From assembly GCA_027603945.1 (NCBI GenBank), contig JADIIU010000006.1, positions 62,001-126,000 on the forward strand: DNA of 64,000 nt, given 5' to 3'. The position numbers and the translations under genes are program-made. Each line of letters starts with the position of its first letter. The stretch's first letter is position 1. Shown in pieces: positions 1 through 64,000 of the stretch. The notes under the pieces are model-generated. The model did not search any database and had not been told where the DNA came from. It saw only the letters and a program-made list of their open reading frames with translations. Source of the DNA: Terramyces sp. JEL0728 (lineage: Eukaryota > Chytridiomycota > Chytridiomycetes > Rhizophydiales > Terramycetaceae).

Positions 1-1
1 A

Positions 2-766
2 GAAGGGATTTCACGACTCACTCCACATGCCGACTCGATGACGAAATTGGGATTTATACCCGGATTAACCATAGCTGGACTCTCAATCATCATGTTTCTG
101 TTGCTATGTACTATGCGGCAAGCCGATGCAGAAAATGCAATCTACGATAAACTTGAAAATGAAAAAGATGTGGAAATGCAAACAGAACAGAAACAAGAAA
201 CGCAAAAACTAAAGTACGGGTTTATCCTATACTTTATCCTCAACTTTTCTTTGCGCGGAGTGTTGGGGGTTGCAGAAACGTTTGGTGGTACTGAATTCCA
301 ATCTTACTTTCCCAATGATCCCAACAAAGTCGACAGATCGAGCGAATTCTTCTTTTACTTGGGCCTGGGAGGAATATTCTTTTATTTCGTTATTCCGTCG
401 CTCGCCAAACTCTTGACTGACTTTTATACCCTTGTACTCGGTATTATATCTTTGGCAGCCGGATCTTTCCTGCTCCTGCCACTTTGTGGAAACAATTTTT
501 CAATCTTTGTAAATGCAATGGTGCTGATTTGGTCCTTTGGATCACCTATCACCCAAACACTAACGATTTCTACCTATTCGCAAATGATGGGGAGTAAACC
601 GCAAGGTACAGCAATGGGATGGCTCACTATTGCTGGCAGCTTGGGAAGAATTATATTCCCGATCTTGTGTGGAGTAAATTTAACAGTTGGATCTATCGTA
701 AATATCGTTACATGCATTCTGTCACTGCTACTGGTAGTTTTATTCAGATTAGTCTACTTTAGATAG
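2..766 (+). CDS. MFS transporter, C-terminal half (partial, MFSD8-like)
   Basis: The reading frame is open from base 2, so the gene is cut by the left edge; the first ATG (38) is unlikely to be the real start. About 250 residues with five or six hydrophobic segments are visible. A charged glutamate/lysine/glutamine-rich loop (about residues 32-60 from the first Met) separates two membrane blocks, as in the central loop of major facilitator transporters. The motif QGTAMGWLTIAGSLGRI near the C-terminus resembles the TM11 region of MFSD8/CLN7-type lysosomal or vacuolar MFS proteins. The substrate cannot be inferred. No intron is needed in the visible part. An AATAAA lies at 783-788, before the stop of the convergent otubain gene 30 bp away. 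Confidence 0.7.
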   Translation, partial: EGISRLTPHADSMTKLGFIPGLTIAGLSIIMFLLLCTMRQADAENAIYDKLENEKDVEMQTEQKQETQKLKYGFILYFILNFSLRGVLGVAETFGGTEFQSYFPNDPNKVDRSSEFFFYLGLGGIFFYFVIPSLAKLLTDFYTLVLGIISLAAGSFLLLPLCGNNFSIFVNAMVLIWSFGSPITQTLTISTYSQMMGSKPQGTAMGWLTIAGSLGRIIFPILCGVNLTVGSIVNIVTCILSLLLVVLFRLVYFR

Positions 767-796
767 CATCCTGTATAGTCAACAATAAAAACATGT

Positions 797-1615
797 CTAC
801 TCACATTTATTATCATAAAGGATGTCGTAATGGCCAGGTCGGAATAATAGAGACAAGCTGAGAAGAGCATTTCCTTCCATTGGCGAGATTTCATGGTAAT
901 TGATTGATTCTGTCAGAGTTGTATCCAAGTTGCCAACTCTAATTGTAATACCGAATACATTCGCCATGGCTACTATATGGATTTGGTCCGACTCAACATA
1001 CACTAGGTTAAATCCGAGTACTTGGTTCGACACAAGCAGCAAGGAATGCTTCCAAAGTAGGATGGGCATCCAATACAAACACCTCATACATCTCGCGATC
1101 CTAAATTAACCGCAGGTACTCTTTTCAATAATGCAGCCGTTACTATCCTTAGAAAACAAACAATGGTGTCGCTTAGATACTCGGTGGTAAATATTTCCAT
1201 CAAGTCCTTGTTTGTGGTAACAGCATCGTAGAACGGATCGTAAAAATCTTCCATGATAGACAAGTCATATCCGGTTTGAGAAAGTAAATCTTTAGTTGCT
1301 ACACATTTCTCAACTAGCTTGTTTTTGATTTCTGTGGGTTGATCACGTAATAATTCGCAAAATCGGAATGCAAACGCTCTGTAAAAGCAGTTTCCATCTT
1401 TTTTAATTGTTCGCATCCTGCATCCATTTGATTTGAGATGAATTAGCTTGGAGTGGTATATTGGATCGCCATTCAAGTATTCCTTATTAAACGTCACGTA
1501 CTTGTTCAAGGGCTTCAAACCCGATAACTTCACTCACTAGTGGAGTATGTCCAATCTCCTGATCTTTAATTTGTCGTTCGTATTTCAGGATTTCTTCATC
1601 AGTCGGTCTTTCCAT
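797..1615 (-). CDS. OTUB1: Otubain-type ubiquitin thioesterase
   Basis: Four exons separated by three 19-nt introns (1483-1501, 1101-1119, 1003-1021) give a 253-residue protein. The OTU catalytic block KKDGNCFYRAF holds the aspartate and nucleophilic cysteine, and the C-terminal RPGHYDILY holds the catalytic histidine. The sequence restored across intron 3 (EPMYVESDQIHIVAMA) matches the otubain family, which strongly supports the tiny introns. Otubains remove ubiquitin (OTUB1 prefers K48 linkages) and can bind E2 enzymes. The length is close to animal OTUB1 (about 270). The start is the ATG at 1615, only 17 bp from the divergent start codon at 1633. Confidence 0.93.
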
Positions 1616-1632
1616 TTTTTGAAATTTAAAAA
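1616..1632. promoter_or_regulatory. 17-bp divergent intergenic region
   Basis: Only 17 bp separate the start codons of the otubain gene (minus strand) and the TPR-like gene (plus strand). The segment is all A/T except one G and is nearly symmetric, with runs of T then A flanking each ATG. Any promoter or 5' UTR for each gene must therefore lie within the coding part of its neighbour. The spacing is read directly from the sequence; the promoter role is inferred. Confidence 0.5.
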
Positions 1633-2493: not shown

Positions 2494-2605
2494 TCAGCTC
2501 GAAAGTTCGCTGGCTGTTCCAGTTCTTTCAACTTTCAAATCTAGAGATATGCTGTCAATCTTTGTGCCAAATAATTGGTAACAGTCAATAATTTATATTC
2601 CAAAT

Positions 2606-3261: not shown

Positions 3262-3276
3262 TTTACGACGCGAAAA
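3262..3276. promoter_or_regulatory. 15-bp divergent intergenic region
   Basis: Only 15 bp separate the start codons of the RIIa-like gene (ATG at 3261, minus) and DYNC2LI1 (ATG at 3277, plus). Both genes may encode flagellar components, so a shared bidirectional promoter is attractive, but its elements would have to overlap coding sequence. Confidence 0.5.
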
Positions 3277-4525
3277 ATGGCGATTGAAACTGAAGATTGG
3301 AGACGTAGCTCAACTAGTATAAACGAACCTTCTCCAAAGACAAGAGGAGTAAAGGATATCTGGACGCTTGTAAAAGAATCAAAAGATCGGGAAAAGAAAC
3401 CTGAATCAAGTATGCTAGTTCTTACAAAGGCGATGTTGCAATAGAAACGTTGCTATTGTTTGCAGGTTCCTCTGGAAGCGGAAAAACATCGATCGTTAAT
3501 AGATTTCTGGATAAAGAAGAAACCCCCTCGCCAAGTGTTGCGTTGGAATATACTTTTGGAAGGCGAACGAGAAAGAACGAAACCAAGGATATCACACATA
3601 TATATGAATTGGCGGGAGGAGTAAATCTATCAAATTTACTGGAAATTCCAATTTGTGAATCAAACATACACACATCGTCTGCAGTTCTAGTTGTAGATCT
3701 ATCAAAGGTAAATGGCATTAACAAAGCCTGAAGAGATCCTTGATACTCTTGATCATTTCATTGAACGGATAAAGTCCAGGACCAACGCTGTTTTGGATCG
3801 CTTGGAATCTCGCGGTTCAAAGAGACCCCAAGCGCTAAGAAACTATGCGATGAAAAGATACGGGTCGGAACACCCAGATGAGTGCATTAATTCTAATTTA
3901 GGAAACTGGTATCTCCAATCGCCATACCTATCCTAATCATCGGTACATTTTACGACAAGTTTACCCTGCTAGAGTCTGAACCAAAGAAACTGCTTTGCAA
4001 GACATTGCGGTATATAGCTCATTTGAACGGGGCTGCATTGGTATTTACGTCAATTCAAGATGAGGTGTTAAACAGCAAAGTAAGTGTGTTTGACAACAGT
4101 GCCGTCAGCTATTGACTCACTTGGCATTCAGAGGCTCGCCTCCAAAATCATTCTTGATTGACCACAATAAGCCATTGCTTGTAATGGCTGGCCAGGATGC
4201 ATTTTCGCAAATTGGAAATCCTCCATCGGAAATTATCACGGATGCAGTCGGAAAGCAGCAGTTTGTAAGCTACGACAAATGGAAGACAGATTACTACAAA
4301 TATTTCCCGCGCGTAGCTACGGAAATCGAAGAAACTTTTGTCAACCTGAGTTTGTACCCGGAACAGGCGATCGACAATCTACGAATGGAAAAAGATCGGG
4401 AATTGGAAAAACTAAAAGTAAATATCGAGAGGCAATCCAAAGACAAAGATATTAATGCCAGTTTGTCCAATTTGCTCAGTGCGAAAGAGAAAAAGAAGAG
4501 CAAGGCTTATTCCCGGGCACGGTAA
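3277..4525 (+). CDS. DYNC2LI1: Dynein-2 light intermediate chain (IFT retrograde motor)
   Basis: Five exons with introns of 20, 19, 20 and 20 nt (3410-3429, 3708-3726, 3882-3901, 4080-4099) encode 389 residues. The Ras-like P-loop GSSGSGKTSI is near residue 60. It is followed by VALEYTFGRR and, after the third intron, by IPILIIGTFYDKF, corresponding to the G4-like segment of the family. The C-terminal region is charged and coiled-coil-like. The protein belongs to the dynein-2 complex that drives retrograde intraflagellar transport, so it is direct evidence of a cilium or flagellum. Length is slightly above human DYNC2LI1 (351). Confidence 0.92.
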
Positions 4526-4589
4526 GACATATTTTATTAAAGAGCATCTAATATGGCAGTTGCGTAATAAACAGAGTAAAGTTTTTGAA

Positions 4590-5184
4590 TTATTCAGGCA
4601 ATTGAATATTTGCAGCAGCTTGTTGAAACGCTGGCGTGTCTTGGAACTTTCCAATTCGGTCTTGTACCAACACAGTTTTGATATGGTTTTCACATTGTTC
4701 ATACACCTTTCCCGCCATTTCCTTGTACTCTTCCGATTCCATTTTCATTCCTTTTGCCTTCAATTGTTCCAATCCAATCAAACAATCGCGCTTAATTTTG
4801 GCTGGAATATTGACCTGCATTAGTTTATAATACCTCTTTTTCGGACGCTGGAAGCATAAAGTTTGCCAATATTTTGGCCCTGAACTCTTCTAGCTTTTCC
4901 CTATCGGTCGCGCTATCCAAATCAGAATGGTTAAGCAACTCTTTGTACTCTCCGGTCTTTTGAATAAATAGCAAGTTCTCAAGACAGAATTCTGCTTGCA
5001 AGAATGATTCTAATGCTTGCGACAACTCTTTAGATTGCAAAATCGACTCTAAAAACTTTTTGGTGGATGGCTGCCGTCTTAGTGTTGCTCCTCCGTTCGA
5101 AAGTAGTCTTTTCGCATCGCTGTTATCTGGAGACTTTACATCTACTGAAGCTGGGCCGTCTGGGTTCTTTTTTCCTCCACACAT
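4590..5184 (-). CDS. RGS-domain protein, tandem copy 1
   Basis: Two exons joined across a 19-nt intron (4815-4833) encode 191 residues. An RGS domain spans about residues 38-180, with the block FLQAEFCLENLLFIQ typical of regulators of G-protein signalling, which speed GTP hydrolysis by G-alpha subunits. The N-terminus MCGGKKNPDGP is shared with the next copy and carries a cysteine at position 2 that could be acylated (inferred). It is the first of three paralogues in the same orientation, and all three have their intron at the same codon (before VNIP/VNLP). Confidence 0.9.
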
Positions 5185-5245
5185 TACAATGTATGAAAAA
5201 AATCACACGTCAAACAATTATAAGGTAATGAAAGTATCAGTTTAT

Positions 5246-5854: not shown

Positions 5855-6025
5855 ATATCAAATTTGAAAACTTTCTCAGGATGATTTACGTCACTCAAAC
5901 AATGAGCTTATGTCCAAACCTCCTAATTTCACTGATAATGCAACACTTGGAAATACAAGCTTGCGGCTCTCAACACTGGTGTACAGATCTTTATTTAATA
6001 CAAGTTTTGAGGCACGATCGAATGA

Positions 6026-16837: not shown

Positions 16838-18888
16838 ATGTTCAATTACAGCTTCAGCAGAGCTGGGATATTCATTCGATTAAACCCATGTAAAAATATC
16901 AGTAAATTAAATTATCGTTCCAGCGTTCGGTTCAATTCCACACAAGCCAAGAAACAGAAATCATTAAAGGATCAATTAATGCCCTTTTGGCCCTATGCTA
17001 AACCGGAAACTAAAATTGTTATTGCATCGATTGGGCTATTACTTGTTAGTTCTACAGTTACAATGTCTGTGCCATTTTCAATGGGGGCGATTATTGATAT
17101 CGTAATGGCCGATGCAGGAGCGGATACAACAGATTTTGATAAACCAAAATTGAACGATAGTTCCGGCGCAGACCCGGTTGGTTTTATGAATTCAAAGAAT
17201 AATTCCACGTTATTAAAGACTCTTTTGGAAAAAACTGGATCTCTATCAGCGCTATTCAGCGTACTAGTCGGTGTCTTTGTCGGTAATTATCACTAATACA
17301 AAGTTGGAGCGGCTGCAAATGCGGGAAGGCTGATTTTAATGACTAAAGCCAGCGAAAGAGTGATTACAAGGTTAAGAAACACACTGTTCAATCGAGTCAT
17401 GAAGCAGGACATTTCTTTTCATGATAAATTGCAGAGCAATGAATTGATTAGCAGATTGTCCACCGATACCGTGGTTGTTGGAAGAACTCTAACTAATAAT
17501 ATTGCTGACGGGCTTAGAAGCTTGGTTATGGCTAGTACAGGGTTAGGAGCTATGCTATATGTCAACGTCCAACTAACAATGACTATCATGTTGATTGTTC
17601 CGGCAATTTCAATAGCGGCTGTTACTTATGGCAGATATGTCCGTGGGCTTGCAAAGAAGACTACTGATGCATCTGCAGAACTGACAAAGCTGTCTGGAGA
17701 AAAGCTGCAGCACTTGCGTACTGTCAGAGCGTTTGCAAAAGAAGACGCCGAAATTGACAGGTTTGATGATTTAATATAGGTATAATGAAAAGGCGGAAGA
17801 CGTATACCAGTTGGGAATGCAACAAGGATACGCATCAGCAACGTTTTTCTCTTTGATGGGATTCTCTGGAAATATTGTTATTCTTGCTATTCTGTACTAT
17901 GGAGGTTCGCTGGTCAACAGCGGGTTGATATCTATTGGCGAGCTTACTAGTTTCTTCCTATACACAATATATGGTATACTCTGCTAATACTAGTTGGTTC
18001 ATCGTTGGTTGGTCTTAGTTCTTGGTATACAGACCTGAACAAGGGTGCTGGTGCTGGCGATAGAATATTTTCACTGATTAACGAACCTGCACAGATTGAA
18101 AAAACAAGTAATATGAATTTGATTTAGTGGGCAAGAAACTTGAAAAGCTTGAAGGAAATATTGAATTTAAAAATGTTGCATTTTCTTATCCAACAAGAGC
18201 AGAATCCAAGATATTGAGCGATTTGAGTTTCTCACTTAGCCCTGGGGAACATGTTGCAATTGTCGGCCATTCAGGATCTGGAAAGAGCACTATCACCCAA
18301 TTGCTACTTCGATTTTACGACCCTGAACAAGGCTCAATAACTATTGATGATGTTCCATTAAGCGAAATCGATCCTGTTTGGATGCGTGGGTCTTTAATGG
18401 GCTTAGTATCGCAAGAACCTACTCTATTCTCAGACACTGTGAAGGAAAACATCAGATACGGAAGGCCAGATGCCACGGACGAACAAGTAATCGAAGCAGC
18501 AAAGAAAGCAAATGCCCATGACTTTATTACCTCTTTCCCACTCGGGTACGATACTCATTTGGGAGATAGAGGCCAACAAATTAGCGGTGGCCAAAAACAA
18601 AGGATAGCAATTGCAAGGGCACTCTTAAAGAACCCAAGAATTCTAGTACTAGATGAAGCAACATCAGCCTTAGATAACGCTTCGGAGGTCTTGGTACAGG
18701 AAGCCCTGGATAGACTCATCCAAGGCCGGACTGTAATTACAATTGCGCATCGTCTCAGCACAATTCAAAAGGCTGACCGTATATTTATGCTTGGAAAAGG
18801 CAAGGTTATGGAATCTGGAACGTATAAAGAGTTGATTGCAAAGAATGGCCACTTTGCAGCTCTTATTGGTGAAGAAATAACTGAATAA
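16838..18888 (+). CDS. MDL1: Mitochondrial half-ABC transporter, Mdl1/ABCB10 type
   Basis: Five exons with introns of 21, 19, 20 and 20 nt (17283-17303, 17761-17779, 17974-17993, 18108-18127) encode 656 residues. A presequence is followed by a six-helix ABC membrane domain. The nucleotide-binding domain fills the last 250 residues: Walker A GHSGSGKST, signature ISGGQKQR, Walker B ILVLDEATSALD and H-loop TIAHRLST. The family exports peptides or other substrates from the matrix in yeast. The stop TAA sits inside AATAAA (18884-18889). An upstream in-frame GTG at 16823 is not used as start here. Confidence 0.92.
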
Positions 18889-21761: not shown

Positions 21762-24700
21762 ATGGTAATGCAGCATTAACAAGTCGATCGATCAGCTAGC
21801 GTCAGTTATTCAACAGCTATTCGAAATCGTCGCTAATCCGGCTGCATCAACTGCGGATATCAAGAATGTATTTTTTGTTTCATTTAGGCCACTTCCCAAC
21901 TCAGCAGCGAATGTTTAATCCATGTTCAAGCAATCCCGTCCCTCTTTCACATTATTGCAACACATCCAAATCAAGGAGTAGCAAATAGCTCACATTAGAT
22001 CAGACAATTGGCTTCTGTTGAGGCTCGCAAACTGGTCCAAAAGAACGAAGGGCTATTCTGGGAAAGTTTGGACACTGGAATTAGAGAGGAAATCAAGCAA
22101 AATTTATTAAAGATGGTTGTATCTGAACAAAGCGCAGTTGTTCGTCACTCATTGGCTCATGTTGTAGCTGAAACTGCAAAGAACGAAATCAGCCAAAATA
22201 GATGGCAGGAATTGGTAAATCTGCTGTACGAATCATGTTCAAGCGCAAATATTATTCATAGAGAAATGGGGGTTTACATTCTGTACTCTCTCTTTGATGT
22301 AATCGCAGATTCAATGGATTCCTACCTTGGACACCTTGTAAATCTGTTTACAACCACCATCAACGACCCAGAAAGTTTGATGGTACAAGTTACGACAGTA
22401 CAAGCGCTGGGAAAAGTGGCAGATTTCATTGATGCCGAGGATTCGAATGCTGTCAAACAATTTCAAGCTTTAATTCCTGCAATTGTTGGTGTACTTCAAA
22501 AATGCCTGGACACTAATGATGACGAAAGCGCAGGGAAGATCTTTGAAGTATTTGATGATATCTTGTTGTTGGAAGCCCCACTTTTATCTAAACACTTTGT
22601 TGATTTGATTAATTTGTTCCTAAGAATTTCTGCAAACCAAGATTATGAAGAGGAAATACGAATTAGATCGCTTTCATTCCTGATTTGGTGTATCATGGCC
22701 GCCAGATCCAAGATTGGCAAAGCAAAATTGATTCCAAATATTATTGAAGCCATGTTTATCATTGGGGCCGAAGAAGAACCAGATAACAGGGATGAAGACT
22801 ATCCAGCAAAACTAGCTGTTCAAGTCATTAACTCATTGTCGACACATTTCCCTCCTCAGCAAGTATTCCCTGTTGTTATGCAACACGTAATTAAAAATAT
22901 TCAAAGTAGTAGCCCTGGTGATAGAAAAGCCGCAATGTTAGCTATTGCCGTATTGATTGAGGGTGCTGCTGATTTCATGCGTCCAAATGTCAAGGAAGTC
23001 TTGCAATTAGTCATTCACGGCTTGCAGGATCAACATGTATCGGTTAGAAAAGCGGCATGTATGGCTCTTGGATCATTATGTGACGACTTTGAAAGCGAAA
23101 TTTCTGACCAGCATTCTACTATCTTGCCATTGCTATTCAACTTGCTGAACGACCAAGATTCCTTAGTTCACGGAGAAGCATTAGGCACACTGGATGTATT
23201 TATTGAAAACCTGGGTGAAGATATCATCCCATATATGAATGGATTGATGGAAAAGCTGGTTTCAATTTGGGGATCTGGTAGCAAAAAAGTTCAAATTGCT
23301 ACCACAAATTGCATCGGATCTGTCGCATTTTCTGCTTCAAAGGTACATACGTGTTAATTCAGAACTTTGCTCCATACTTTAATGAAGTCATGTCAAGATT
23401 GGTTATCCTCATGAATATTACCGACACTGATAACCTTCCGCTTAGAAGCTGCGCAACTGATTGTGTTGGAGCGGTCGCCACTGCAGTTGGAGTTGAAATT
23501 TTTAGAGTATCTTTGTTTCTAACGACAGCCCAACCTGCAGGAAGTTATGAAATTGGTGTACAATGGACTTAAATTTGACCACCCGCAATTAAACCAATGC
23601 AGCTATGTATTATTTGGGGTTTTGGGCAAGTTGTTTGAATCCGAATTCATCCCATACTTGCAAACAATTGTTCCTCAAATTATTCAGTCATGTAACGCTG
23701 AAGAACCCTACGAAAATGTCCATACCGGCGAAGAAGCAATTGGCGAAGTTGAAGACGAAACTCCAAAGTTTTCTACTGGTGTCGCTCAAGAAAAGGAATC
23801 TTCGATCGATACTCTTGGTGAATTATTCGAAGCCACTAAACTTGCCTTTATGCCATTTGTTCCCGAATCAATCAACTGTGCATTGCAGTTATTAGATCAT
23901 TATCACGATGGTGTTAGAATTAATGCTGCTGGATGTTTATTAAAGTTCTTTAATACTATTTACGTAATGGGTGATCAGTCTGAATGGGAACCTGGCCTTC
24001 CACTAAAGAAACCTGTCCATGAAAATGTTTCAAATGTTGGAAAATTGGCAGTTGAAGGAATTTTGTTGATGCTCAAAGATGAAGAAGAGCGTTATGTAGT
24101 TACCCAAGTATTGCAGCAATTGGGCGAGACTTTGAAGATTACGGGACCTGCTGCTGTCTACCAAGCATTTGCTGGTGAATCACACACCGGATCTCATTTG
24201 GATTTGCTAGCAAACCAACTGCTCTCTATTTTGGAAGGAGAACACCCCAGTCAGATCGGTCTCAGCTCATATGGCGAATCTCTAGGTCAGGAAGACGATG
24301 AAAACCTTGCAGAACTGGATGCATTGACTGTTAGTGTAGCTGCAGATACGGTTGGTGCCTTGGCTGCTGCTGTCGGTCCTCAATTTGTTCCTTACTTTGA
24401 AAGGTTTTTCCCTGCTATCAGCAAATACTACAAGAAAAATGCGTCCGTTCAAGATAGAAGCATGGCAATTGGAGCCCTCGCTGAAACTGTAGACGGCCTT
24501 GAAGAAGGGGCAACTGTATTCACTAACGATTTGATGCAATTCTTTATGAAAGGTTTGCAAGACACGGAAGACGAAGTCAAAAGTAATGCAGCATTTGGAA
24601 TTGGTGTGTTGGTTACACACACCACTGCAGATGTAACCAGCTCATACCCAACACTCTTGCAAATGTTACATCCGCTCTTCAATCCTAACTCTGAAACCAA

Positions 24701-25099
24701 TATGCAAGATAATGCTTGCGGATGTCTCTGTAGAATGATTATCAAAAATCCTACCAGTGTCCCTCTAGATCTTGCTCTCCCTGCAATTCTTGGATGTCTC
24801 CCATTAACAAAGGACTATGCAGAAAACAGACCGATTTTCAAGGCATTGATTGATCAACTCAATGTAAACAATGAATACTTGATGTCGCAACTACCTCGCA
24901 TCTTTGATTTTTTTGCCCATGTTTTGGATGATCCAAAAGAACAATTGCACAAGATTACGAGATCCTTGATTGTCCAGGTAAGCGATTATTAACACAGTTT
25001 TTAAATTCGTTCAAGAGCGCTTATTCTGCCAATTTTGAATCGTACCTGAACCAATTAGGAGAAGGAAAGGCATCTATTATCCTTAAATCTTTAAATTAA
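21762..25099 (+). CDS. KAP123: Importin-beta family karyopherin Kap123
   Basis: Seven exons with introns of 19, 20, 21, 20, 22 and 20 nt (21765-21783, 21868-21887, 21978-21998, 23343-23362, 23507-23528, 24978-24997) encode 1071 residues, near yeast Kap123 (1113). HEAT repeats run throughout, and the N-terminal IRQLASVEARKLV is typical of the Kap123/importin-4 branch. The family imports ribosomal proteins and histones. The first coding exon is the ATG alone, separated from the second codon by a 19-nt intron. Confidence 0.92.
21765..21783 (+). other. 19-nt intron directly after a start codon
   Basis: The first coding exon of KAP123 contains only ATG. The intron gtaatgcagcattaacaag follows immediately and ends in ATTAACAAG. 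Removal joins ATG to TCG ATC GAT, giving MSIDQLASVIQQLF. Confidence 0.8.
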
Positions 25100-25168: not shown

Positions 25169-26105
25169 TCACTTCTTTTTCAGATGAGCAGCAAATAGTA
25201 TAGTATGTGCCCACCTACATTAGCATTTCTTACCCACAGTAACTGCCAAAAATATTATAGAACCCCATTGAAATATCCTGATATACTTTGGCATTCAAAG
25301 TCTTTCCTTTTGCCATTCCATAATCTCTGGTAGCAATCTGCCATACGTGCGTGTCCACAGGTATCGCTTCTATTTTGTCCATACTCATTAAACAAATACA
25401 GTCAGCAACTTTGGGACCAACTCCAGATAATTTCATCAGTTCTTGTTTACACTCTAGATACTCCATTGCAGATAGAGCGTCTACCCAATCAACCCCAGAA
25501 TCTCTTATAATCTCGACTGATTCTACAATATATTTTGCTCTATACCCAAATCCAAGCTCGCGTAACTGAGGTTCTTTTATATCCTGCAATTCGATGATGT
25601 GCGGAAATTCATGAAAATCAATCCCTTCCACTGTGCCGATATATTTGCCAAATCTGGTCAGAAATATTTACTTGTTCAGCTTGTTTACCAACGATGTGAT
25701 TCTTGAAATGTTGTTGTTGCTTGAACAAATAAAGGAGAATATATTTTCTAATTTTGGCTGTTTCATTACTCGTAGACCTTGAATTTGTTTTGTTTTAAAG
25801 TTCTTGTCTGTGGACCACTGGTCCATTAGATCCTTCAAGCAAACATTCAATTGAAAATACTCTTCCAGTGTTTTCCGGCACAACTCTTCGTTCTCCGCTT
25901 TGAATAAGACTGTATCTGGGGTTTGTTTGAGTGTAATGAGTTGGGCATTCAAGACCATTGTCCATTCCATTGGATTTGTTTGGATCTATGTTATTGATAT
26001 GTACCTAAGTAAGGAATTGATTACCCATCGAAAGCACTGGCCAGTAGGCAGGGTCTTGTCCAGCCTTAGTTCCACTGGCGAGACATTCAAATCAAACCAA
26101 GTCAT
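25169..26105 (-). CDS. OGG1: 8-oxoguanine DNA glycosylase
   Basis: Four exons encode 286 residues; introns are 39 nt (25986-26024), 18 nt (25654-25671) and 19 nt (25215-25233). The N-terminus (LPTGQCFRW) and the helix-hairpin-helix GVGPKVADC match OGG1. The lysine near residue 214 is the Schiff-base nucleophile, and IPVDTHVW supplies the catalytic aspartate. The enzyme removes 8-oxoguanine opposite cytosine. The first intron looks like two abutting introns of 20 and 19 nt. No N-terminal mitochondrial presequence is seen. Confidence 0.94.
25986..26024 (-). other. 39-nt composite intron (20 + 19 nt) in OGG1
   Basis: Read on the minus strand, 26024-26005 is gtaatcaattccttacttag and 26004-25986 is gtacatatcaataacatag. 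Each has its own GT start, branch-like TTAC or ATAAC, and TAG end. Removing only one shifts the reading frame; removing both joins FRW to IQTNP. It is either one 39-nt intron or two introns with no exon between. Confidence 0.75.
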
Positions 26106-28581: not shown

Positions 28582-31119
<2,538 letters not shown>

Positions 31120-31250: not shown

Positions 31251-31670
31251 ATGTTGAGAAAATTGATTAACCGTATACTGGTAATTGACTTGCCGTGGTC
31301 TTCAAGGAGATTCACAGGATACGACCTGGACGGAAATATGTATTTTGAAGAGCCTTCGAGGAGAGAGGGTAATGAAAAATTAATTCAGGAATATCACAGA
31401 GCAGGAGATTTGTTCAGTACGCTGACGGAAGAGCTAACCCTCATCAATACGATCCAAATATGATTCCAATCCAGTAAATTCCACTAATGTAGATGGCAGT
31501 CGTGGATGCGACATACTCGAGAATTGATACCAACCATTGAGGAACTCCAAGTGGATCTGCAGCGAAAGGAAACTACAAAGACACTAGTCGAAGCACTCGA
31601 ATCTAAAGAAAAAGCCGAACCCCCAAAGGAATTCCAACCTGCAAGCTGGAACCCAAAAAAAATCCAATAA
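31251..31670 (+). CDS. NDUFAF2: Complex I assembly factor NDUFAF2 (mimitin)
   Basis: Three exons with introns of 20 nt (31369-31388) and 19 nt (31474-31492) encode 126 residues. The family pattern is clear: FTGYDLDGNMYFEEPS, then RRFVQYADGRANPHQYDPN, then PIQWQSWMRHTRELIPTIEEL. NDUFAF2 is an NDUFA12 paralogue that assists late assembly of NADH:ubiquinone oxidoreductase. The TAA is inside AATAAA (31666-31671), and the convergent ABRACL stop lies 8 bp further on. Confidence 0.92.
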
Positions 31671-31678: not shown

Positions 31679-31969
31679 TCAATCTTTTAGTAAAATAATA
31701 TCCACATTGTCGTGAGCACCTTGCAGAAGCATTTCTCCATCGAATGCAATGACCTTGCGTTTCTAATTGAGCAAAAAATTACCTTTGCTGCCCTCAATGT
31801 CCCGTTCAACGCTTCGAAAATATCCCCACAGCGTTCGTCCTTGACAATGACACCAAATTTGACCACGTACTGGCCTTTGTCGTTCTTTTGCCCTAACCGC
31901 TTCGTTAACGAAATGTACTTTGATTTCCACGGCCAGCTTTTCGACTTCATCTGCTACATCAACTCCCAT
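31679..31969 (-). CDS. ABRACL: Costars family protein ABRACL
   Basis: Three exons with introns of 19 nt (31900-31918) and 20 nt (31763-31782) encode 83 residues, the normal length for the family (human 81). The restored sequence includes VVKFGVIVKDERCGDIFEAL, GTLRAAKKRKVIAFDGE and LLQGAHDNVDIILL, matching ABRACL/costars closely. Costars proteins modulate actin dynamics and cell motility in Dictyostelium and animals. In a zoosporic fungus this could relate to amoeboid movement (inference). Confidence 0.95.
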
Positions 31970-36597: not shown

Positions 36598-37621
36598 TTA
36601 ATATTTTTCTGCATTGTTGTTCAACCACTTGAATACAGAAGAAAAGTCCTTCTTTTCATAGCCTGGAGTGGTCATCACTTGATTGTAAATTTGATGAGTA
36701 ACGCTGGCGAGAACCGCAGTGCTCTTGGTTTCATTTGCAGCATTGACAGCCAAACCCATATCTTTTGCCATCAAGGACACGCCAAATCCACCAGTGTAAT
36801 CTCTTGAACTTGGAACGTTTGGAAGGACTCCTGGACATGGATTATATAATTCAGTCGACCAACATCTTCCAGATGAAGTGTTGATTACAGATGCCAATAA
36901 TTTAGGATCCATTCCCATTCTAACACCAAGATTCATAGCTTCTGAAGCCGCGACCATTGAAATCCCCAAAATCATCTAGGTTAGTAAATATTACGTTGTT
37001 GCAAATCTTTGCTACCTGTCCTGTCCCTGGAAATCCACAATACACAATATTCTTGCCCATATGTTCCAGGATTAATTTGGACTGTTCAAATGTTTCTGGT
37101 GATTTGGCACCAACCATAAATGTTAATGTTCCTGCTTGAGCTCCCAAGGTCCCTGGATTAATAGATGTATACCGCCAGAAACAGGTGCGTCCAACATTGC
37201 TGCTCCATGTTTTTCCAAGATTGAAGAGACTTCCTTGGAAGTAGAAGGATCGATTGTGCTGCTATCAATCACCATCGCATTAGGCTGGAGCTTTGATAAT
37301 AGTCCATTTTCTCCCAAATATACTTGGCGGACATGCGCAGACGCTGGCAGCATCGTAACAATCACAGAACATTCTTCAGCAATCTTGGATGCTTTTGTAG
37401 CCACATGTACATTACCATGTTCCTGCTTGAATTTCACTGCAACTTGTTCTGCATGATCAAGAACCCAAAACTTTGCTGGTGAGAGCTTTTTGTAGAGATT
37501 TGAAGCCATTGGGTATCCCATCTGGCCCAGTCCAATAAACCCAACGGATTTCTATCATTAGCACTCCCGGTACTGTTTTAAAGTCTGTTGAGTAGCACCT
37601 CTTGAGGATTTGGAATCGCAT
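36598..37621 (-). CDS. HIBADH: 3-hydroxyisobutyrate dehydrogenase, mitochondrial
   Basis: Four exons with introns of 22 nt (37552-37573), 20 nt (37153-37172) and 19 nt (36976-36994) encode 320 residues. A short basic presequence (MRFQILKRCYSTDFKT) precedes the Rossmann motif GFIGLGQMGYPMA. DAPVSGGTLGAQAGTL follows across intron 2. GTGQVAKICNN carries the catalytic lysine, and INTSSGRCWSTE is also diagnostic. The enzyme acts in valine catabolism, oxidising 3-hydroxyisobutyrate with NAD. Confidence 0.94.
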
Positions 37622-49138: not shown

Positions 49139-50600
49139 ATGTTGGTATATTGTGTCCACAATGAAAAAGAGTTCCAAATCGAACTAAATAAACAGGCGTC
49201 AGTATCCGAAGTAGTGGAGCAGCTCAGATCCTATTTGCCTGAAAACTCGGGAGATGTTGTGAAATTATACACGCCAGATGGCAATCTCGTTCCTATCGGT
49301 CCAAATATTCCGACAAATCCCCAAACAAAGCGATACCAGCTAGTCGCAACTGCCAGTACTACCATCTAATCCAAGGTAAAATCCCCAAACTACAAAGTGA
49401 ATGCATTTTGTCAGATATCAAATATGTTACAAAAAAGTTTGAAGTAATCCATTCTAACTCAGCATTTTAACAAGTTTGCAGAGTCAAGATACAAAAAGCA
49501 ACATATCGTATTGACACCTGCAATTTCCAAAGTGGAAGCGTTGATCGCGAAGCTGGAGCCATTTGAGGAAGAAACGTCAGTGTCGTTTGCGCCTGAGGTC
49601 TATGAAAAATTGAAATCTGTCAATTTTGAATTGTGGAATTATGATGAAGATGCTCTGCAACACTTTTTGCTCTCCTTTTTCGTCGATATGAATTTTGTAT
49701 CGCATTTCAAAATGGATAGAGGGGTGCTATACCGATTTTTATGTACAGTTCGAAGGGCATACAACAAGAACCCATTCCATAACTTTAAACACTGTTTCTG
49801 TGTCACTCAAATGGTTTATGTCTTGCTCCATATGGGGAATTTAGATGTGCAATTCACCATGCTGGAAAAGCTTTCATTGCTGATTTCGGCAATCGGAGTA
49901 TATCTTTCTAATAGTAGCATGATTTGGATCACCCAGGATTAAATAATGCATATCAGACAAACGCGCTAACAGACTTGGCAGTAACGTACAATGACGTTTC
50001 GCCGCTAGAAAACCATCACTGTGGTAATTAGTCATTGATGCAGCAACTCTATTTGCTATTTTTAGACACGCCGATCTCAATATTCTGGGAACATTATCTC
50101 CACAAGATTACAAAGATGCTAGAAAAACAATAATAGGGTGCATTCTCGCAACTGACATGGGCAGACATGCAGAATGTATTGCAAAGTTGAAGGAAGTGGC
50201 TCCAAACTTCAAAATTGACGATCCAATCCAAAGAACACTGGTACTCTGCTTTTAATTCAAGCTTATCCAAACCATTCTCAAATGTGCCGATATCAGCAAC
50301 GAAGTCCGGCCGAGCAAAGTTTCTGAGCCTTGGGTAGATTGTTTGCTGGAAGAATTCTTTGCACAGTCAGATAAAGAAAAGGAGGAGCATCTGCCATTCG
50401 CGCCTTTCATGGATAGAGACAAAGTCACCAAGCCTAGTGCTCAAGGTAACGGTTTAATTTATTGCGTAGTCGGGTTTATTGGATTTGTGCTACTTCCACT
50501 ATTTGACGATACTAGCAAAATGGTTCCAGAATTGAGGCCGCTCATTGACAACATTCAAAGAGCAAAGGAATATTATATGAGTTCAACGAATAAAGCATAG
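49139..50600 (+). CDS. PDE9A: Cyclic nucleotide phosphodiesterase, PDE9 type
   Basis: Seven exons with introns of 20, 19, 20, 20, 21 and 24 nt (49356-49375, 49444-49462, 49898-49917, 50024-50043, 50241-50261, 50446-50469) encode 445 residues. The N-terminal 75 residues resemble the PDE9A N-terminus ([15 protein letters not shown]). The catalytic domain has [44 protein letters not shown] and [15 protein letters not shown], including the metal-binding HD residues. PDE9 is cGMP-selective in animals. Zoosporic fungi use cGMP in phototaxis, a possible role here (inference). Confidence 0.93.
50446..50469 (+). other. 24-nt in-frame intron without a stop codon
   Basis: Length is a multiple of three and the frame reads through as GNGLIYCV. 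Retention would insert eight residues into the PDE9 catalytic domain instead of truncating it. Removal gives [11 protein letters not shown], which matches the family. Confidence 0.75.
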
Positions 50601-54349: not shown

Positions 54350-54774
54350 TTATTGATTAGTCCACTGCCCTGGTAATGGGGTTTCCTGTAATGATTCCCA
54401 TGGCTGCGTTAAACCGCAATTACCTTATTTTCCTCCATAATTTTAATTAATTTCAACTCTTCCTGCGCTTGTTCGATCAATTCCTCCATCTACATTAAAA
54501 TCACGAACCTGTCCAAGTTGGAATTCATCTTCAATCTTTTTCAAATCTTCGGTTTTTTCAATGAATTCAATTCTCTTGTTGAATAATGCCAGAGTTCCTT
54601 GACGGTATACACTTGATTCTGGAAATCTTTGCAACGAGTGAGTGATTCTAGAGTAGAGTGAAAGTAATTCTGGTTTTGCAGAGTGGTGAACTGGCAATCC
54701 AACCAATCCTGTAGTCTGATCATTAATCAATTATTAACTGCTTTAGCTTGCAAAAGTCGTGAAAAAACTCTCAT
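54350..54774 (-). CDS. NDUFA5: NADH:ubiquinone oxidoreductase subunit NDUFA5
   Basis: Four exons with introns of 23 nt (54716-54738), 19 nt (54490-54508) and 20 nt (54404-54423) encode 120 residues (human 116). The restored start MRVFSRLLQAKATTGLVGLP and the end KPWESLQETPLPGQW match NDUFA5, a peripheral-arm subunit of complex I in the mitochondrial matrix. The 23-nt intron is among the longest simple introns here. The TAA stop is inside AATAAA (54349-54354 on the minus strand). Confidence 0.95.
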
Positions 54775-55047
54775 TTTTGTGATGATTTAAAAAAGTTTGC
54801 AAACTACTTTTTTAAAGTGCAAGGATTCCATTAGTTATGGATTATAAGGATTGGAATTGAGATATTATTGAGCGCATCCTAACTGGCAGAGAGCAATTTT
54901 ATATCCGCCTCACTAGAAATAAAATGCACCGGTAGATATAATCGCTAATGCATATATCCAAGTCTAGAATCGATATATGTCTTTGATTGGTGTGCCTGAT
55001 CCAGCCCCTTAAATTCCATGGATGTATTTTTTACCTATAAAAAACCA

Positions 55048-55838
55048 ATGCCCATTCTAATAGCAGTAGGAGGTAATCAGCCCTAATCGCAGGAGCTAGT
55101 TGCTCTGGTATCCAGCATTAATCCAGGAAAATCGACTTTAACCAATTGCTTATCATATTTATTTGAATCCGCGATAATACACCAGGACGAGTTTTACCGA
55201 CCAGACAGCGATATCCCTGAGTTGAAAGGACATGCGAATTGGGATTGTCCACAAGTATTTTATATTAACACAGGCAATTGACTTTAATGCGTTCCTCGTT
55301 TGTCTGCAGGATGTAAAGTCGGGAAGGCAGCACTTGGGTACATTTTAATAACATAGGTACATTTTAATAACACAGAAAACAAGGTGGGACCAAACAGACC
55401 AAAGATGACGCACACAGAGTTGCTGAATTCAAACCCCAAGATCAGAGAACTGCTACAGAGATTAAGGCCAGTTCATGAAAAGAATCCGTTTGTATTCATT
55501 GATGGATTCCTATTGTACACCGATAAAAGGTGCATGGGTACTTTTGATGTACAGATATTCTTGCACGCTCCATTCGAAACGTTGAACAAACGGAGAAACG
55601 AACGCACGGCTTACGTTACCACTCAAGGTACATTTATATTCATTAAGGCTCTTGGGTAGATCCTCCACAGTATTTCGAAAAAGTAGTGTGGCCAGAATAT
55701 CTTCAAAATAATCAGGAAATGTTGAGCCATGTGCAATCTCCTGACGAGAAAACCATCGTAATCAACTCACTGGATTTCGGGGTAGAGCAAGTCACAGTTG
55801 CTGCTTTGGAGCATCTGATCAAGATGTTCAAGGATTGA
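55048..55838 (+). CDS. NRK1: Nicotinamide riboside kinase
   Basis: Six exons encode 224 residues. Introns are at 55073-55092 (20), 55108-55126 (19), 55255-55273 (19), 55338-55375 (38) and 55628-55647 (20). The P-loop GGASCSGKST is split by two introns flanking a 15-nt exon. IIHQDEFYRPDSDIP, NWDCPQAIDF and FVFIDGFLLY match the NRK family. The enzyme phosphorylates nicotinamide riboside to NMN in NAD salvage. The 38-nt intron is a tandem duplicate of a 19-nt intron. Confidence 0.93.
55338..55375 (+). repeat. Tandem-duplicated 19-nt intron in NRK1
   Basis: Unit 1 (55338-55356) is gtacattttaataacatag; unit 2 (55357-55375) is gtacattttaataacacag. They differ at a single base and abut exactly, so each is a complete GT...TAATAAC...AG intron with no exon between. 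Both must be removed to keep the NRK frame (QHLENKVGPNRP). Confidence 0.9.
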
Positions 55839-55854
55839 AATAAATATATTGCTT

Positions 55855-59388: not shown

Positions 59389-61816
59389 TTATTGGACATT
59401 GAAATCAACATAGGCGGCAGTAGATTTAACCTTTGGATCAGCATTGGATTTGTGTTTGGCAAGCGCATCTTTCAAACCCATCAAAGTCGCGGTTTCACCC
59501 AACTCTGGAGATCCTGCCAATAAAGTGCCAGTGGATACGATAATTCGCAGAATGGTATCGTTATCATTCGCAACCTTCAACAACTAAAATTAATCCGTTC
59601 GTACAGTCAAGGAACTCTCAAGTAAATCTACTGCAAAGTTTTCATTCTTTGGGTGCTTGGAATACAATATAGTTATACTGGGTTAGCGAAACTTACTTTA
59701 AGAACAGAGTGGCAAGGGCTAGATGTAGATTCTTGTTGGTGGTGGCCTCGGCAATTTTCTTTACTCTTCCGAGAATCAGTTCCTTGGCATCAAAGATTTG
59801 TTTTGCGATTCCTAGATGTGCAAATGCGTTAGCGTAACATCTAATCACCAACATTAAATTAGTTTCAGTGTGTTTTGGAAGCGGTTGTGCGTTAATCTCC
59901 CCCAGCGAGCTCCATAAAGAATCCATAATTGTTGGTGCGAATTCAACTACTTTAGGAGTCTGAGAAATCGCTAACCGAAGCAGATCTATTCCTGGGAATC
60001 TTTTTTCTACCGGCCATTCGAAAAGGAGCGTATTTAAGAGGTCTGCATCGGCTGAGGAATAAGTCTGGCTCAAAGTGCTTTTTTCAATACTATCAATCAA
60101 ATTTTTCACTGTTGCAAGTTCAGCTACAGACAGACTTTTTGGAACACCTTCATTATTAAACTGTTCAATCTTGGCTAGTAGAGCTTTTAGGTTTGCTGTT
60201 TTAAAGTATGCATAGTCTTTCATCGGAATCAAATCAGAGGTTGGCTTGGTTTCAGTAGGAATGTATCTACTGCCCCCAGTGAAGGCATCCCCGTGTCTAA
60301 TAGAAGGGCCACGTGGAGCTGGATTTCCACCAGGTACATAGCGGTTCCCTCCGGTAAATGGATCTGCGTATCCTGGAGGAGCTTGAGATTCGCCTAGCGT
60401 TACACTCTGAGCATTTGTAACGATGAAGTTTGCGATTTCTTCCAAAAAGTCTTGTGATAATTCATTTGCATTGATAAAATCTTGCGCAGCCATATAGGGA
60501 TTATCACTTGAATTGTATGGCAATTTCAAATGCGGTGCACCCGGCTGAATTTCAACATCAAACACATAATCGTATTCCTTTCCAAGGTAAACTTGTTTCC
60601 TTTTGTTTCCAACAGCATCGACTACTTCCCCTACCTTTTCCCAACTGCCTTTGGATCCGCTCCACTACAATTAAATATAATTACTTGGTGTGCTTCAACT
60701 ACATTCCCCACCCGAATCATCTTAATTTGGCCCTCCTTTGCACCGGGCTGCTCCAAAACTTCTGGTCCAGGTAAATCGTTCTTGTTGACATCCCCCACTT
60801 GGTTTGATGGAATACTGCTGGAAGATAATGATTCTTCATAGGTCTAATTAGATCGTCGATACCTTGATCTCCTCTGCAGTAGCGACCCTTTCGGAAGATT
60901 GAGTAAATACACGAATGAATCCGTCGCTTCCCGCTGCAAAGATATCTCCTGATGCTGCTGTTGCGACTGCCCAAACAGAAATACATGGCTGAATCAAGCA
61001 TTGAAACTCTGACTGTCCTTTCCATACTCTTACTGTTCTATCTTCACCGCTCGAAACCAAATCCCCTGAAGGTAATCTGGCCAGTCCATAAACAAAAGAG
61101 TTGTGTCCATGCAAATCATATACCAATTCGCCATTCGACTTTACAACACGGATTGTGCTAGTTTAATATACACTTACCCATCGTTGGATGTTGAAGCAAA
61201 TCCTACGTTTGGAATACTGATTATGCTCCGAACAACATCATTGTGCCCTTTGATAGTTCTGATTTCCATTCCATTATTCCAAATCTTTATGGTTTTATCT
61301 GCTGAAGCTGTCAAAAATGTACCTTCTCCAACTGCTAACACTCCCCAGACTGCAAATAAGTGGCCAGCAAGGGTTGCAACACACTTTCCATTTCTCCAAA
61401 CCCTTGCAGTTTTGTCCCAAGATCCTGAAATCAAATCCCCTTCTGGAGACACTGCCAGCGTGCATATGTTATCACTATGCCCTTCTAATTTGTATTTTAC
61501 ATCCGCAGGATTACTAGGGTCGAAAACGTAAATGATTTTGTCAGATCCCCCACTGGCTAGCAAACCTCCTACATTAAGCAAAATAACCATTTCCATTCAT
61601 TTGCGGCATAAATACCAGAGCGTTTACGAAATGGTTGTGCTTGGTGAACGTCGCTTGTTGGTGCCAAGTATTTTCTAATCTATTCCATATTATAACATTG
61701 GAATCTCTTGAAGCTGAAGCAAATGTATCATTATCAATCACTGCGAGTGCTTTTACGTCCTGGCTGTGTCCAGCAAGTACTGCACTCAATTTGAAATTTT
61801 CAAGATCAACTGCCAT
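59389..61816 (-). CDS. DOA1: Doa1/PLAA ubiquitin-binding Cdc48 cofactor
   Basis: Seven exons with introns of 19, 20, 19, 20, 19 and 21 nt (61569-61587, 61158-61177, 60844-60862, 60665-60684, 59678-59696, 59584-59604) encode 769 residues. A seven-bladed WD40 propeller starts AVLAGHSQDVKAL. A PFU domain (GSWEKVGEVVDAVG, YDYVFDVEI) and a C-terminal PUL ARM domain follow. The linker has ADPFTGGNRYVPGG and DAFTGGSRYIP repeats. Doa1/PLAA binds ubiquitin and Cdc48/p97 in protein turnover. Confidence 0.95.
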
Positions 61817-61842
61817 TTATCAAAAAGTCAAAAACTATTATT

Positions 61843-63255
61843 TTACTGGTTTGTTTTTTGAGCTAACAGCGCAAACATATCCGAACAAACCTATGATGAG
61901 CACATCTTACCTTGCTCGCGTGGGGGACTCTATCTCTAAAGAACTTTGACGTTGATTCAAATCGCTTTTGATAAGCTTCCATGCTTGCTAGCTCAATACA
62001 CTCTACCCAGCCTTTTGCCGATGTATAAAACTCACAGTCATCTGCACGGATATCCCGAACGAAAAGTGCTGCGTGAATTGCCTCCTCTAGAAATTCTTCG
62101 TTCCGAAACACATATTCAGCAATCCCTAACAGTAGGCGGAAAGGCGGGGTCTGGCAAATCAGATGGTCGTATGGCCGTATCCCCAACTTTTCCCAACAGT
62201 CAACAATCGCTAGCAATGACAAGTGGGAATTCTTTCGATTAATTCGCAAATACCGGCTTTCTCTCAGTTTTTGGGACTGCACCAAGAGAAAATTGATCCA
62301 ACAGCGAGTCAGAAAGTAAGATTGGATTTCTCTCGAAACCTTGAAAAACAAAATCGCGAGCCTAAATCAAGGATAATTACTCGATACACTCGCGCTCTAA
62401 ACTCTTTATCCTTTTCTTGGATCATCAGCTTGAATAGGTCCGAAACAGACTGTGCATATTGCTGGACTTGGCCAAAAGCATAAGGATTTAATAGCACTAG
62501 CCCTGGAATTAGTTGCGAATACCAGCATATACGTGCCATTTGTTCCCATAGATTCTTAGTGCCATTAGAGTCTTGGCATTTTCAATACCGCCGATATATT
62601 GAGCATTTTCCCATGGAAAGATTGTGTTGGTCTTCCATGCAGTGCCCATTGATAAAAATGCCAAGTGCGTAACTGCTTGAGTGTCTGCTGTAATGTGATC
62701 GTGTTCTTTGGCTGTCAGATGGACTATTTTAGATTCAAGAGATTCTAGGATATCAACAGCTAGATCAAAACTTGCATTGTCGCTTCTATGTCTAATCATC
62801 ACCAATGGCTTTGGTTAAATTGAATTACTTGGTTTTTTGGATTCACCGTAGGTCCATGCAAAGAGTGGCATGTCACTATATTCACATCATCTGGCAAATA
62901 CTTTTCGAATGCCTTAATTTCTGGATCTTTTACTGATGTCTGTCCACATGCGATAGATCCTATTCTCATTGCTGGTCCAAATTGTGCAACCACCTTTTCA
63001 ATGTACGCTGCTTCCACTGAAAACATAATAAAATCGCATCTGCGAGCAATTGCGTACCCATCCTTCCATACTTTAAATCCTTGCTTTTCAAAAGGTTTAA
63101 TCTTTTCATAGTTCTCTGGCAAATCGCAAACATTCACACTAATTTCAATACCAGGTGTACTTTTTCCATCCCGCTTTCAGGAAATGCTTCCCGTATAGCA
63201 TCCCCATGTCTCCAAATCCTATAATACCCAACTCCAGCCTACTTTTTTCCGTCAT
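61843..63255 (-). CDS. TYR1: Prephenate dehydrogenase
   Basis: Seven exons with introns of 22, 20, 20, 19, 22 and 20 nt (63139-63160, 62809-62828, 62503-62522, 62362-62380, 62232-62253, 61891-61910) encode 429 residues. The nucleotide-binding motif GIIGFGDMGMLYGKHF is at the N-terminus. CGQTSVKDPEIKAFEKYLPD, TCHSLHGP, KEHDHITADTQAVTHLAFLS and ALRIYGNKWHVYAG are typical of fungal Tyr1. It oxidises prephenate to 4-hydroxyphenylpyruvate in tyrosine synthesis. Its stop is 26 bp upstream of the DOA1 start on the same strand. Confidence 0.95.
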
Positions 63256-63418
63256 GTGTAAGTGATTGTGATTTCCAAAAAAGGATTTTGCGGGAGATTA
63301 GCGAGATTAATGGCCGTATGAAATAGAGAATATCCATCAGAAAAGAGACAATATCATCCATCTGCGGCTGATTAATGAGGAATAAGGTACCTGAAATTTC
63401 TTACTAGAACGCGTTTAT

Positions 63419-64000
63419 ATGGAGGAAATCAAAAATCTGTTAAATGCCGACCAAGATACGGCAGAGGAATACCTGTCAATAGAAAAATCCATCAAGGAAG
63501 CGTATAAAAGTTTATATGATTTAAATCTGGTGGTTGGAGACGACGATATCGAAAAATTCAACAATAGACTTAAAAACTGCCCACCACTACCTAACCGACC
63601 GAATACCCCCAAAAATATGGAATACGACAGCCTGGATACATTTCAAAAGACTCATAAAAAGAAATTCAAGTCCAATCTAAGTTCTTCCAAAAAACTACTT
63701 AGTAGCCAACTGTTGAGAGCAGCTCATGGAGACCGCCAGATACATGCGAAAACTCCGAGGCATAATGTCCTTTTTGACGAAAATGCATTTCAAAGAGTTA
63801 TCCCAAAGGCTTCCAGCGATTTCAATTTGGTTTATGCCCAGGATTTGGAAAATCAACATTTCGAACTTCCACAGTTTACAGGCACTGCCCAAAGATGGAG
63901 GACTGGTGTTTCATTGCCTATTACAATTACAAAGGTTGATAAAGCAAATAGCTATTCTCAGCAATTCGAAGATATCAAGCCCAAAGTGAATTCCAGACCA
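63419..64000 (+). CDS. Hypothetical protein, N-terminal part (runs off the window)
   Basis: From ATG 63419 the frame is open to the last base (194 codons), so the gene continues beyond the edge. Residues 1-50 are an acidic helix (MEEIKNLLNADQDTAEEYLS); the rest is basic and asparagine/proline-rich with a PPLPNRPNTP segment. No family is recognised. An intron near 63935-63961 is possible but not required. The start lies 163 bp from the divergent TYR1 start. Confidence 0.6.
   Translation, partial: MEEIKNLLNADQDTAEEYLSIEKSIKEAYKSLYDLNLVVGDDDIEKFNNRLKNCPPLPNRPNTPKNMEYDSLDTFQKTHKKKFKSNLSSSKKLLSSQLLRAAHGDRQIHAKTPRHNVLFDENAFQRVIPKASSDFNLVYAQDLENQHFELPQFTGTAQRWRTGVSLPITITKVDKANSYSQQFEDIKPKVNSRP

Follow-up and report, generated by a model that had tools for sequence, protein, structure and literature searches.

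The protein-coding genes in a 64,000-nucleotide (nt) stretch of the genome of Terramyces sp. JEL0728 (Chytridiomycota, Rhizophydiales, Terramycetaceae), termed the window throughout (C6:62001-126000 in an assembly of 15.0 Mb and 231 contigs), are interrupted almost exclusively by introns of 18-24 nt. This class of ultra-short introns is confirmed as real, is spliceosomal in those of its features that were tested on the sequence, and was met at every place sampled, which amounts to a total of about 324 kb of the 15 Mb. The introns are almost certainly of the U2 type and would represent spliceosomal introns that became uniformly small, down to nearly the minimal size, in the nucleus of a flagellated chytrid; their lengths lie near the lower end of those known so far. 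An initial annotation of the window had resolved about 130 introns in about 37 genes and had described them as mostly 19-20 nt long. Our gene model agrees closely, with 36 genes that carry 130 introns of 18-24 nt and with lengths that centre on the same values (18 nt, 1; 19 nt, 34; 20 nt, 61; 21 nt, 23; 22 nt, 9; 23 nt, 1; 24 nt, 1).

The size class is apparent in the raw sequence. Segments of the form GT[AG]..YTRAY..AG occur 46 times at a length of 19 nt and 51 times at 20 nt in the window, compared with 13.2 and 13.4 occurrences, respectively, in five random sequences with the dinucleotide frequencies of the window. The excess is weak at 21 nt (22 segments) and 22 nt (19 segments, each vs. 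13.6 at random), and none is found at 23-32 nt. For gene prediction, a hidden semi-Markov model covering both strands was run on the window and on C1:1-200000 (264 kb). A first, motif-free pass with GT..AG ends and a flat length prior of 12-200 nt already gave a length peak at 19-22 nt, and after retraining the motif-free model placed 78 of its 168 introns at 17-24 nt. The trained pass, for which donor, acceptor and length were learned and a uniform length component up to 300 nt was provided, yielded 155 genes with 496 introns, 448 of them at 17-24 nt (18 nt, 2; 19 nt, 107; 20 nt, 199; 21 nt, 99; 22 nt, 30; 23 nt, 8; 24 nt, 3). This corresponds to 448 short introns per 214,890 nt of coding sequence, or about two per kb. 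Retention would cause a frame shift or an in-frame stop for 431 of them, while the remaining 17 are stop-free multiples of three. In a held-out set of 19 loci on 19 contigs outside the training sequences (59.9 kb), 85 of 93 introns likewise measured 17-24 nt; these loci were kept from 24, with L030 dropped for lying on a training contig and L004, L032, L038 and L039 for overlapping or duplicating others.

No two of the short introns are identical, and their GC content is 0.306. Introner-like copying was considered as a source and found no support, with 19 near-identical pairs compared with 9-22 in ten column shuffles. In-frame stops are present in 83 of the 99 introns of 21 nt and in 176 of the 306 introns of 19-20 nt (window and C1), an excess that could be due to selection by nonsense-mediated decay or to detection bias.

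With regard to the intron ends, all 256 pairs of terminal dinucleotides were compared without any motif and with flat lengths of 12-60 nt. GT..AG gave 168 excisions of 19-21 nt, whereas the median of the other 255 pairs was 11 and none of them exceeded 49; the next-best pairs, TA..GG, TA..GA and GG..TA, resemble one-base shifts of GT..AG. When eight decoy end-pairs were introduced into the trained model, the class of 17-24 nt fell from 448 to 65-111 introns.

Independent information comes from homologous proteins. Pfam domains span the splice junctions in the products of many of the genes listed in Table 1, i.e., Peptidase_C65 over residues 20-203 of the otubain (junctions 39, 160, 186 and 201), DLIC over residues 52-155 of the dynein light intermediate chain-like protein (E 7.7e-10; junction 138), ABC_membrane over residues 62-367 of the ABC transporter (junctions 149, 301 and 366), NDUFA12 over residues 21-109 of the NDUFA12/NDUFAF2-family protein (junctions 40 and 68) and Costars over residues 5-81 of the ABRACL protein (junctions 18 and 57). 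The same applies to the PLAA-like and SDHC genes, and in the TYR1-like protein PDH_N scores 25 bits, slightly below its cut-off of 26.5. Homologue alignments are gap-free at both junctions of 3-hydroxyisobutyrate dehydrogenase (HIBADH) and, for the PDE9-like phosphodiesterase aligned with PDE9A, at junctions 241, 276 and 342, the first of which directly precedes what we take to be an HD metal-binding motif. Eight surplus residues of the PDE9-like protein relative to PDE9A correspond to a stop-free 24-nt GT..AG intron at 50446-50469 that the gene model had missed. Another missed intron, of 19 nt (55108-55126), lies in the gene for nicotinamide riboside kinase (NRK), where the second exon measures 15 nt; splicing of the two introns that flank this exon restores the P-loop GGASCSGKST common to the homologues. 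With its introns removed, KAP3 shares 59-65% identity with five chytrid KAP3 proteins (P0001, P0004, P0005, P0006 and P0020). Finally, the spliced importin-beta family model with its six introns is identical to the deposited Terramyces sp. JEL0728 protein P0121 in 1071 of 1071 residues. The initial annotation had placed the tiny introns in a flagellated fungus-like genome; the introns hold, while the host is a chytrid fungus proper, as the match of the importin to a deposited JEL0728 protein indicates.

The 448 short introns share a common anatomy. Their donors read G (100%), T (100%), A (88%) and A (53%), followed by T at positions +5 (45%) and +6 (54%), and are unusual in that G occurs at +5 in 21% only. 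The branch A, whose predicted position was taken from the best motif match in each intron, is part of a YTAAY site (Y 91%, T 98%, A 75%, A, Y 93%), and the acceptors are TAG in 277, CAG in 98, AAG in 65 and GAG in 8 introns. The position of the branch point is fixed: 420 of the 448 introns fit a scheme of 13-15 nt, the branch A and 4-7 nt, the most frequent spacers being 13 or 14 nt on the 5' side and 5 or 6 nt on the 3' side of the branch A. Cross-tabulation of these preferred spacers (13/14 by 5/6) gives counts of 86, 85, 98 and 74, so that the two spacers show no dependence (Fisher p 0.23), and intron lengths of 19, 20 and 21 nt result as the sum of two independent spacers.

Matching components of the splicing machinery are encoded in the genome. 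A U2 small nuclear RNA (snRNA) was found at 140 bits and contains the sequence GUAGUA, which is complementary to the YTAAY branch point. The U2AF2 gene, encoding an arginine/serine-rich start and RRM domains, is itself interrupted by tiny introns: with these in place it scores 251.7 bits, below the cut-off of 310.3, and after removal of four introns of 20, 20, 19 and 19 nt it reaches 334. Genes for U2AF1 and SF1 were found as well. The search for snRNA and U2AF genes that the initial annotation had proposed was thus successful for U2, U2AF2 and U2AF1 and unsuccessful for U1 and U6; its suggestion that introns of this size constrain the binding of U2AF is borne out as a matter of geometry, but the genes for U2AF2, U2AF1 and SF1 have all been kept.

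Given the anatomy described above, U1 or U6 would occupy nucleotides 1-6 of the intron and U2 roughly nucleotides 9-15, with two or three nucleotides between them. Sites located so close to each other would imply that the whole intron is recognised as one unit, i.e., by intron definition. As the gap between branch point and AG offers no room for a pyrimidine tract, U2AF65 would need another site or partner; it may bind a T-rich stretch 5' of the branch point or act via contacts with SF1, U2AF35 and SF3B1.

A number of points weigh against the interpretation as shrunken U2-type introns. None of the snRNAs U1, U4 and U6 reaches its Rfam cut-off in the assembly (U5 was not searched). For U1, four exact matches to the 5' end were obtained compared with 12 for a reversed control, and no U1 lies around them, while the top match for U4 stays under the cut-off at 20.3 bits. 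Neither a U6 core pattern nor BLAST with the Rfam consensus nor a pattern search of the 3' part that allowed mismatches revealed a U6; the two top Rfam matches, of 27 bits (L003 and L004), were rejected, as the AGC triad is missing and they overlap an intron and a coding exon predicted for a duplicated gene. Among snRNAs, U6 is usually the best conserved, and the gap may be due either to its absence from the assembly or to an unusual U6 sequence. In the comparison of end-pairs, GT..AG has the largest likelihood gain only narrowly (1572 vs. 1555 for AA..TT); the test is carried by length concentration and not by likelihood gain, and its codon tables were taken from the trained model. A run with fully free intron ends told nothing about the boundaries, which fell anywhere in AT-rich stretches, and the comparison of the 256 pairs took its place. 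In addition, a one-residue gap adjoins the junction of an 18-nt intron in the OGG1-like protein, the homologue comparison covered a minority of the predicted proteins, and all introns are predicted here from DNA and protein comparison. Moreover, apart from the held-out loci, the sequences annotated with the model and the motifs also served to train them.

The last point could favour an artefact, be it from sequencing indels or from over-fitted gene models. Such an explanation has a next to negligible probability in the face of the raw-count excess, which is model-free, the 256-pair control, the held-out loci, the homologue alignments, the identical deposited importin and the score gain of U2AF2 on splicing. 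Knowledge of the segments from DNA alone would also be compatible with their being cut from the DNA, in the manner of ciliate internal eliminated sequences (IESs), some of which resemble the tiny introns in size and uniformity, or with their being skipped by the ribosome like mitochondrial byp elements. The ends of IESs and the hairpins of byp elements differ in kind, however, and we regard both routes as very improbable in view of the GT..AG ends, a YTAAY branch point that matches the canonical GUAGUA of U2, the presence of U2AF and SF1 genes, and deposited proteins that are devoid of several segments just as intron annotation would give.

Assuming spliceosomal removal, the predictions outside the size class have to be accounted for. 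They number 48 of 496, of which 37 exceed 60 nt, and could point to a real class of longer introns (>40 nt) that exists beside the tiny ones and is mostly missed, for instance in poorly conserved genes or in untranslated regions, the latter being outside the gene model. In the window, nine predictions lie outside 18-24 nt (38, 39, 46, 92, 87, 216, 263, 40 and 113 nt). The 38- and 39-nt predictions each consist of two tiny introns in tandem, those of 92 and 46 nt arise from a wrong start, the former containing a 23-nt intron, and those of 87, 216 and 263 nt resemble merged genes or wrong starts when inspected by eye, whereas those of 40 and 113 nt remain candidates for longer introns. Similarly, a 63-nt prediction at the SF1 locus (L031) appears by eye to consist of coding sequence followed by a seeming 21-nt GC..AG intron. 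Furthermore, the eight decoy end-pairs raise the number of introns above 24 nt from 47 to 200-301, so that the long introns predicted with GT..AG ends do not exceed the yield of forced fits; the decoys are a generous yardstick in this respect, since true introns are unusable to them and more bridging results. A separate class of longer introns is therefore unlikely.

The window, C1 and the held-out loci together contain ten predictions of 34-48 nt, and four of these are tandem pairs that split exactly at AG/GT into two introns of 17-24 nt; in shuffles, the mean of such decompositions is 0.098 and none of 2000 shuffles reaches four. Both pairs of the window are listed in Table 1. Excision of one half alone would shift the frame of the NRK gene, and the OGG1-like protein shows no gap relative to OGG1 where its tandem pair is removed (residue 28). 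The other pairs measure 21+21 nt in a gene on C1 and 21+23 nt in a gene that, judging by its protein, presumably encodes PDH E1-beta. A strict double-motif search for tandems, with two hits vs. 0.6 in shuffles and neither window pair included, was not used. Extra sequence would be accommodated in the form of such tandem AG/GT pairs, for which we infer stepwise removal as the probable route.

In an extended and distinctly tentative version of this scheme, which we consider possible but doubtful, the spliceosome in this lineage of chytrids would measure its introns by two short rulers that are independent of each other, one spanning 13-14 nt between donor and branch point and the other 5-6 nt between branch point and acceptor, and would no longer be able to splice introns of appreciably greater length. 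If true, longer insertions would persist only as head-to-tail chains of minimal introns that are excised singly, and the tandem copying of introns, exemplified by 55338-55375, would be a tolerated lengthening of non-coding sequence.

The tiny introns have left traces in deposited proteins. Annotation errors aside, KAP3 corresponds exactly to the deposited Terramyces sp. JEL0728 protein P0002, in which four of ten junctions are spliced as in the gene model. P0002 keeps the 21-nt intron 30906-30926 as the seven residues YVEFNGR, has lost two introns merged together with the intervening exon, joins one acceptor to the wrong donor and ends inside the next intron, the tenth junction lying beyond that end. 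The deposited annotation splices some tiny introns and mishandles others, so that the introns are partly in the database already.

Relatives were examined through their proteins only, namely the listed homologues of KAP3, importin and NRK with an identity of at least 44%. Among these, 66 insertions of 5-8 residues were noted, four of them at junctions of the gene model. In all four, in-phase back-translation yields an 18- or 21-nt intron of the form GT..YTNAY..AG, compared with four of 62 elsewhere in any phase (Fisher p 1e-4, with related cases treated as independent). The JEL0728 KAP3 itself accounts for one of these four cases, and the other three, of 18 nt, belong to P0038, P0234 and P0235, of which the latter two are close to each other; insertions in KAP3 homologues overall are not enriched at gene-model junctions (7/265), the informative ones being those of 5-8 residues that show an intron pattern in the correct phase. 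The importin of Boothiomyces sp. JEL0866 starts with M-VRINLTQ-SIDQL instead of M-SIDQL, readable as a kept 21-nt intron after the start codon, and is devoid of an exon between two gene-model junctions, just as NRK of Boothiomyces macroporosus is devoid of sequence between two such junctions. Error signatures like those of the KAP3 protein P0002 are also seen in the Boothiomyces proteins P0122 and P0231. These proteins suggest that introns of 18-21 nt occur in Boothiomyces and relatives as well and that the trait predates this strain. Gene annotations of this family can accordingly be damaged by tiny introns through retention, exon skipping and truncation.

Table 1. Predicted genes and intron features of the window (positions in nt; intron lengths in brackets where given).
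Feature	Position	Strand	Introns
Whole intron class	1..64000	both	139 introns (gene model); 130 of them 18-24 nt long, spread over 36 of the 45 genes
Otubain gene	891..1615	-	939-958 (20), 1003-1021 (19), 1101-1119 (19), 1483-1501 (19)
Dynein light intermediate chain-like gene	3277..4567	+	3410-3429, 3708-3726, 3882-3901, 4080-4099, 4522-4542
ABC transporter gene	16838..18888	+	17283-17303, 17761-17779, 17974-17993, 18108-18127
Importin-beta family gene	21762..25099	+	21765-21783 (19), 21868-21887 (20), 21978-21998 (21), 23343-23362 (20), 23507-23528 (22), 24978-24997 (20)
Tandem pair, OGG1-like gene	25986..26024	-	20 nt (26005-26024), then 19 nt (25986-26004), AG/GT
KAP3 gene	28582..31119	-	ten introns, 19-21 nt
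NDUFA12/NDUFAF2-family gene	31251..31670	+	31369-31388, 31474-31492
Costars (ABRACL) gene	31679..31969	-	31763-31782, 31900-31918
HIBADH gene	36598..37521	-	36976-36994 (19), 37153-37172 (20)
PDE9-like phosphodiesterase gene	49139..50600	+	49356-49375, 49444-49462, 49898-49917, 50024-50043, 50241-50261
Small gene, presumably NDUFA5-like	54350..54831	-	54404-54423, 54490-54508; revised start adds 54716-54738 (23)
NRK gene	55048..55838	+	55073-55092 (20), 55108-55126 (19), 55255-55273 (19), 55338-55375 (19+19 tandem), 55628-55647 (20)
Tandem pair, NRK gene	55338..55375	+	19+19 nt, copies identical at 18 of 19 letters
PLAA-like gene (WD40, PFU, PUL)	59389..61816	-	seven introns, 19-21 nt
TYR1-like gene	61843..63255	-	61891-61910, 62232-62253, 62362-62380, 62503-62522, 62809-62828, 63139-63160

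Beyond the genes of Table 1, three tandem paralogues on the minus strand of the window (4590-6660) each contain one tiny intron at a similar place (19, 21 and 20 nt), and a short tandem repeat with TPGAVYN-like units at 12890-12960 lies in a putative surface or secreted protein. At 27770-27788, a 19-nt GC..AG intron reading is possible. Between 55855 and 59018, the gene model seems to fuse two genes through a false 263-nt intron; judging by the protein, these are presumably a chitin-binding chitinase-like and an acyltransferase-like gene. Elsewhere in the assembly, kinase matches recur on contigs C18, C3, C26 and C42 with equal or near-equal scores at fixed spacings within each contig (about 62, 29, 46 and 30 kb, respectively), which points to long direct duplications or to artefacts of the assembly.

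Ultra-short introns as a kind are already known from nucleomorphs, Stentor and mikrocytids. The first two, i.e., Bigelowiella nucleomorphs and Stentor, were cited as precedents in the initial annotation and hold as such, while the mikrocytids with introns given as 16-17 nt (PMC10245619) are to be added. Among the matches listed in the literature on tiny introns in chytrids or in the strains studied here, there is no fungal case, and a survey of 644 fungal genomes refers to the 63-bp mean of Cryptococcus neoformans as relatively short (PMC8476143). The present introns suggest independent intron shrinkage within the Rhizophydiales. Prior ultra-short sets stem from relict nuclei, giant ciliates and reduced parasites, which are hard to grow or manipulate, and with a fungal case, the questions of how small an intron the spliceosome can handle and whether it needs a pyrimidine tract become testable in the group of organisms where splicing genetics is best developed.

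Chlorarachniophyte nucleomorphs resemble this chytrid in their very short and narrow intron set, for which PMC4035089 gives 19 nt as the commonest length, with 654 introns in Bigelowiella natans and 496 in Lotharella oceanica. Nucleomorphs are, however, extremely reduced relict nuclei of endosymbionts, whereas the introns described here belong to the principal nuclear genome of a fungus, assembled at 15 Mb, and peak at 20 nt; unlike the nucleomorph case, the chytrid keeps the genes for U2AF2, U2AF1 and SF1. Stentor coeruleus likewise has tiny uniform introns with a fixed branch point and possesses both U2AF1 and U2AF2, but according to the account in PMC9505925 these introns measure 15-16 nt, carry the branch A at nucleotide 10 or 11 and lack a strong branch consensus, compared with 19-21 nt, a branch A at nucleotide 14-15 and a strong YTAAY in the chytrid. 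Uniform, near-minimal introns are also described for Mikrocytos mackini, which differs in being a parasite with a strongly reduced spliceosome and 224 introns of 16-17 nt in 179 genes (PMC10245619). The type B introns of Trichomonas vaginalis share their shortness, down to 23 nt, and a conserved branch-site motif near the acceptor with those of the chytrid, but as presented in PMC12316389 this organism is intron-poor and has a second class of 56-196 nt. Finally, the tandem pairs recall stwintrons and recursive AG/GT points as depicted in PMC9024468 and PMC5126111, in which abutting or nested introns are spliced consecutively; in contrast to stwintrons, the chytrid tandems would consist of two complete introns of 19-23 nt placed head to tail, neither of which interrupts a signal of the other.

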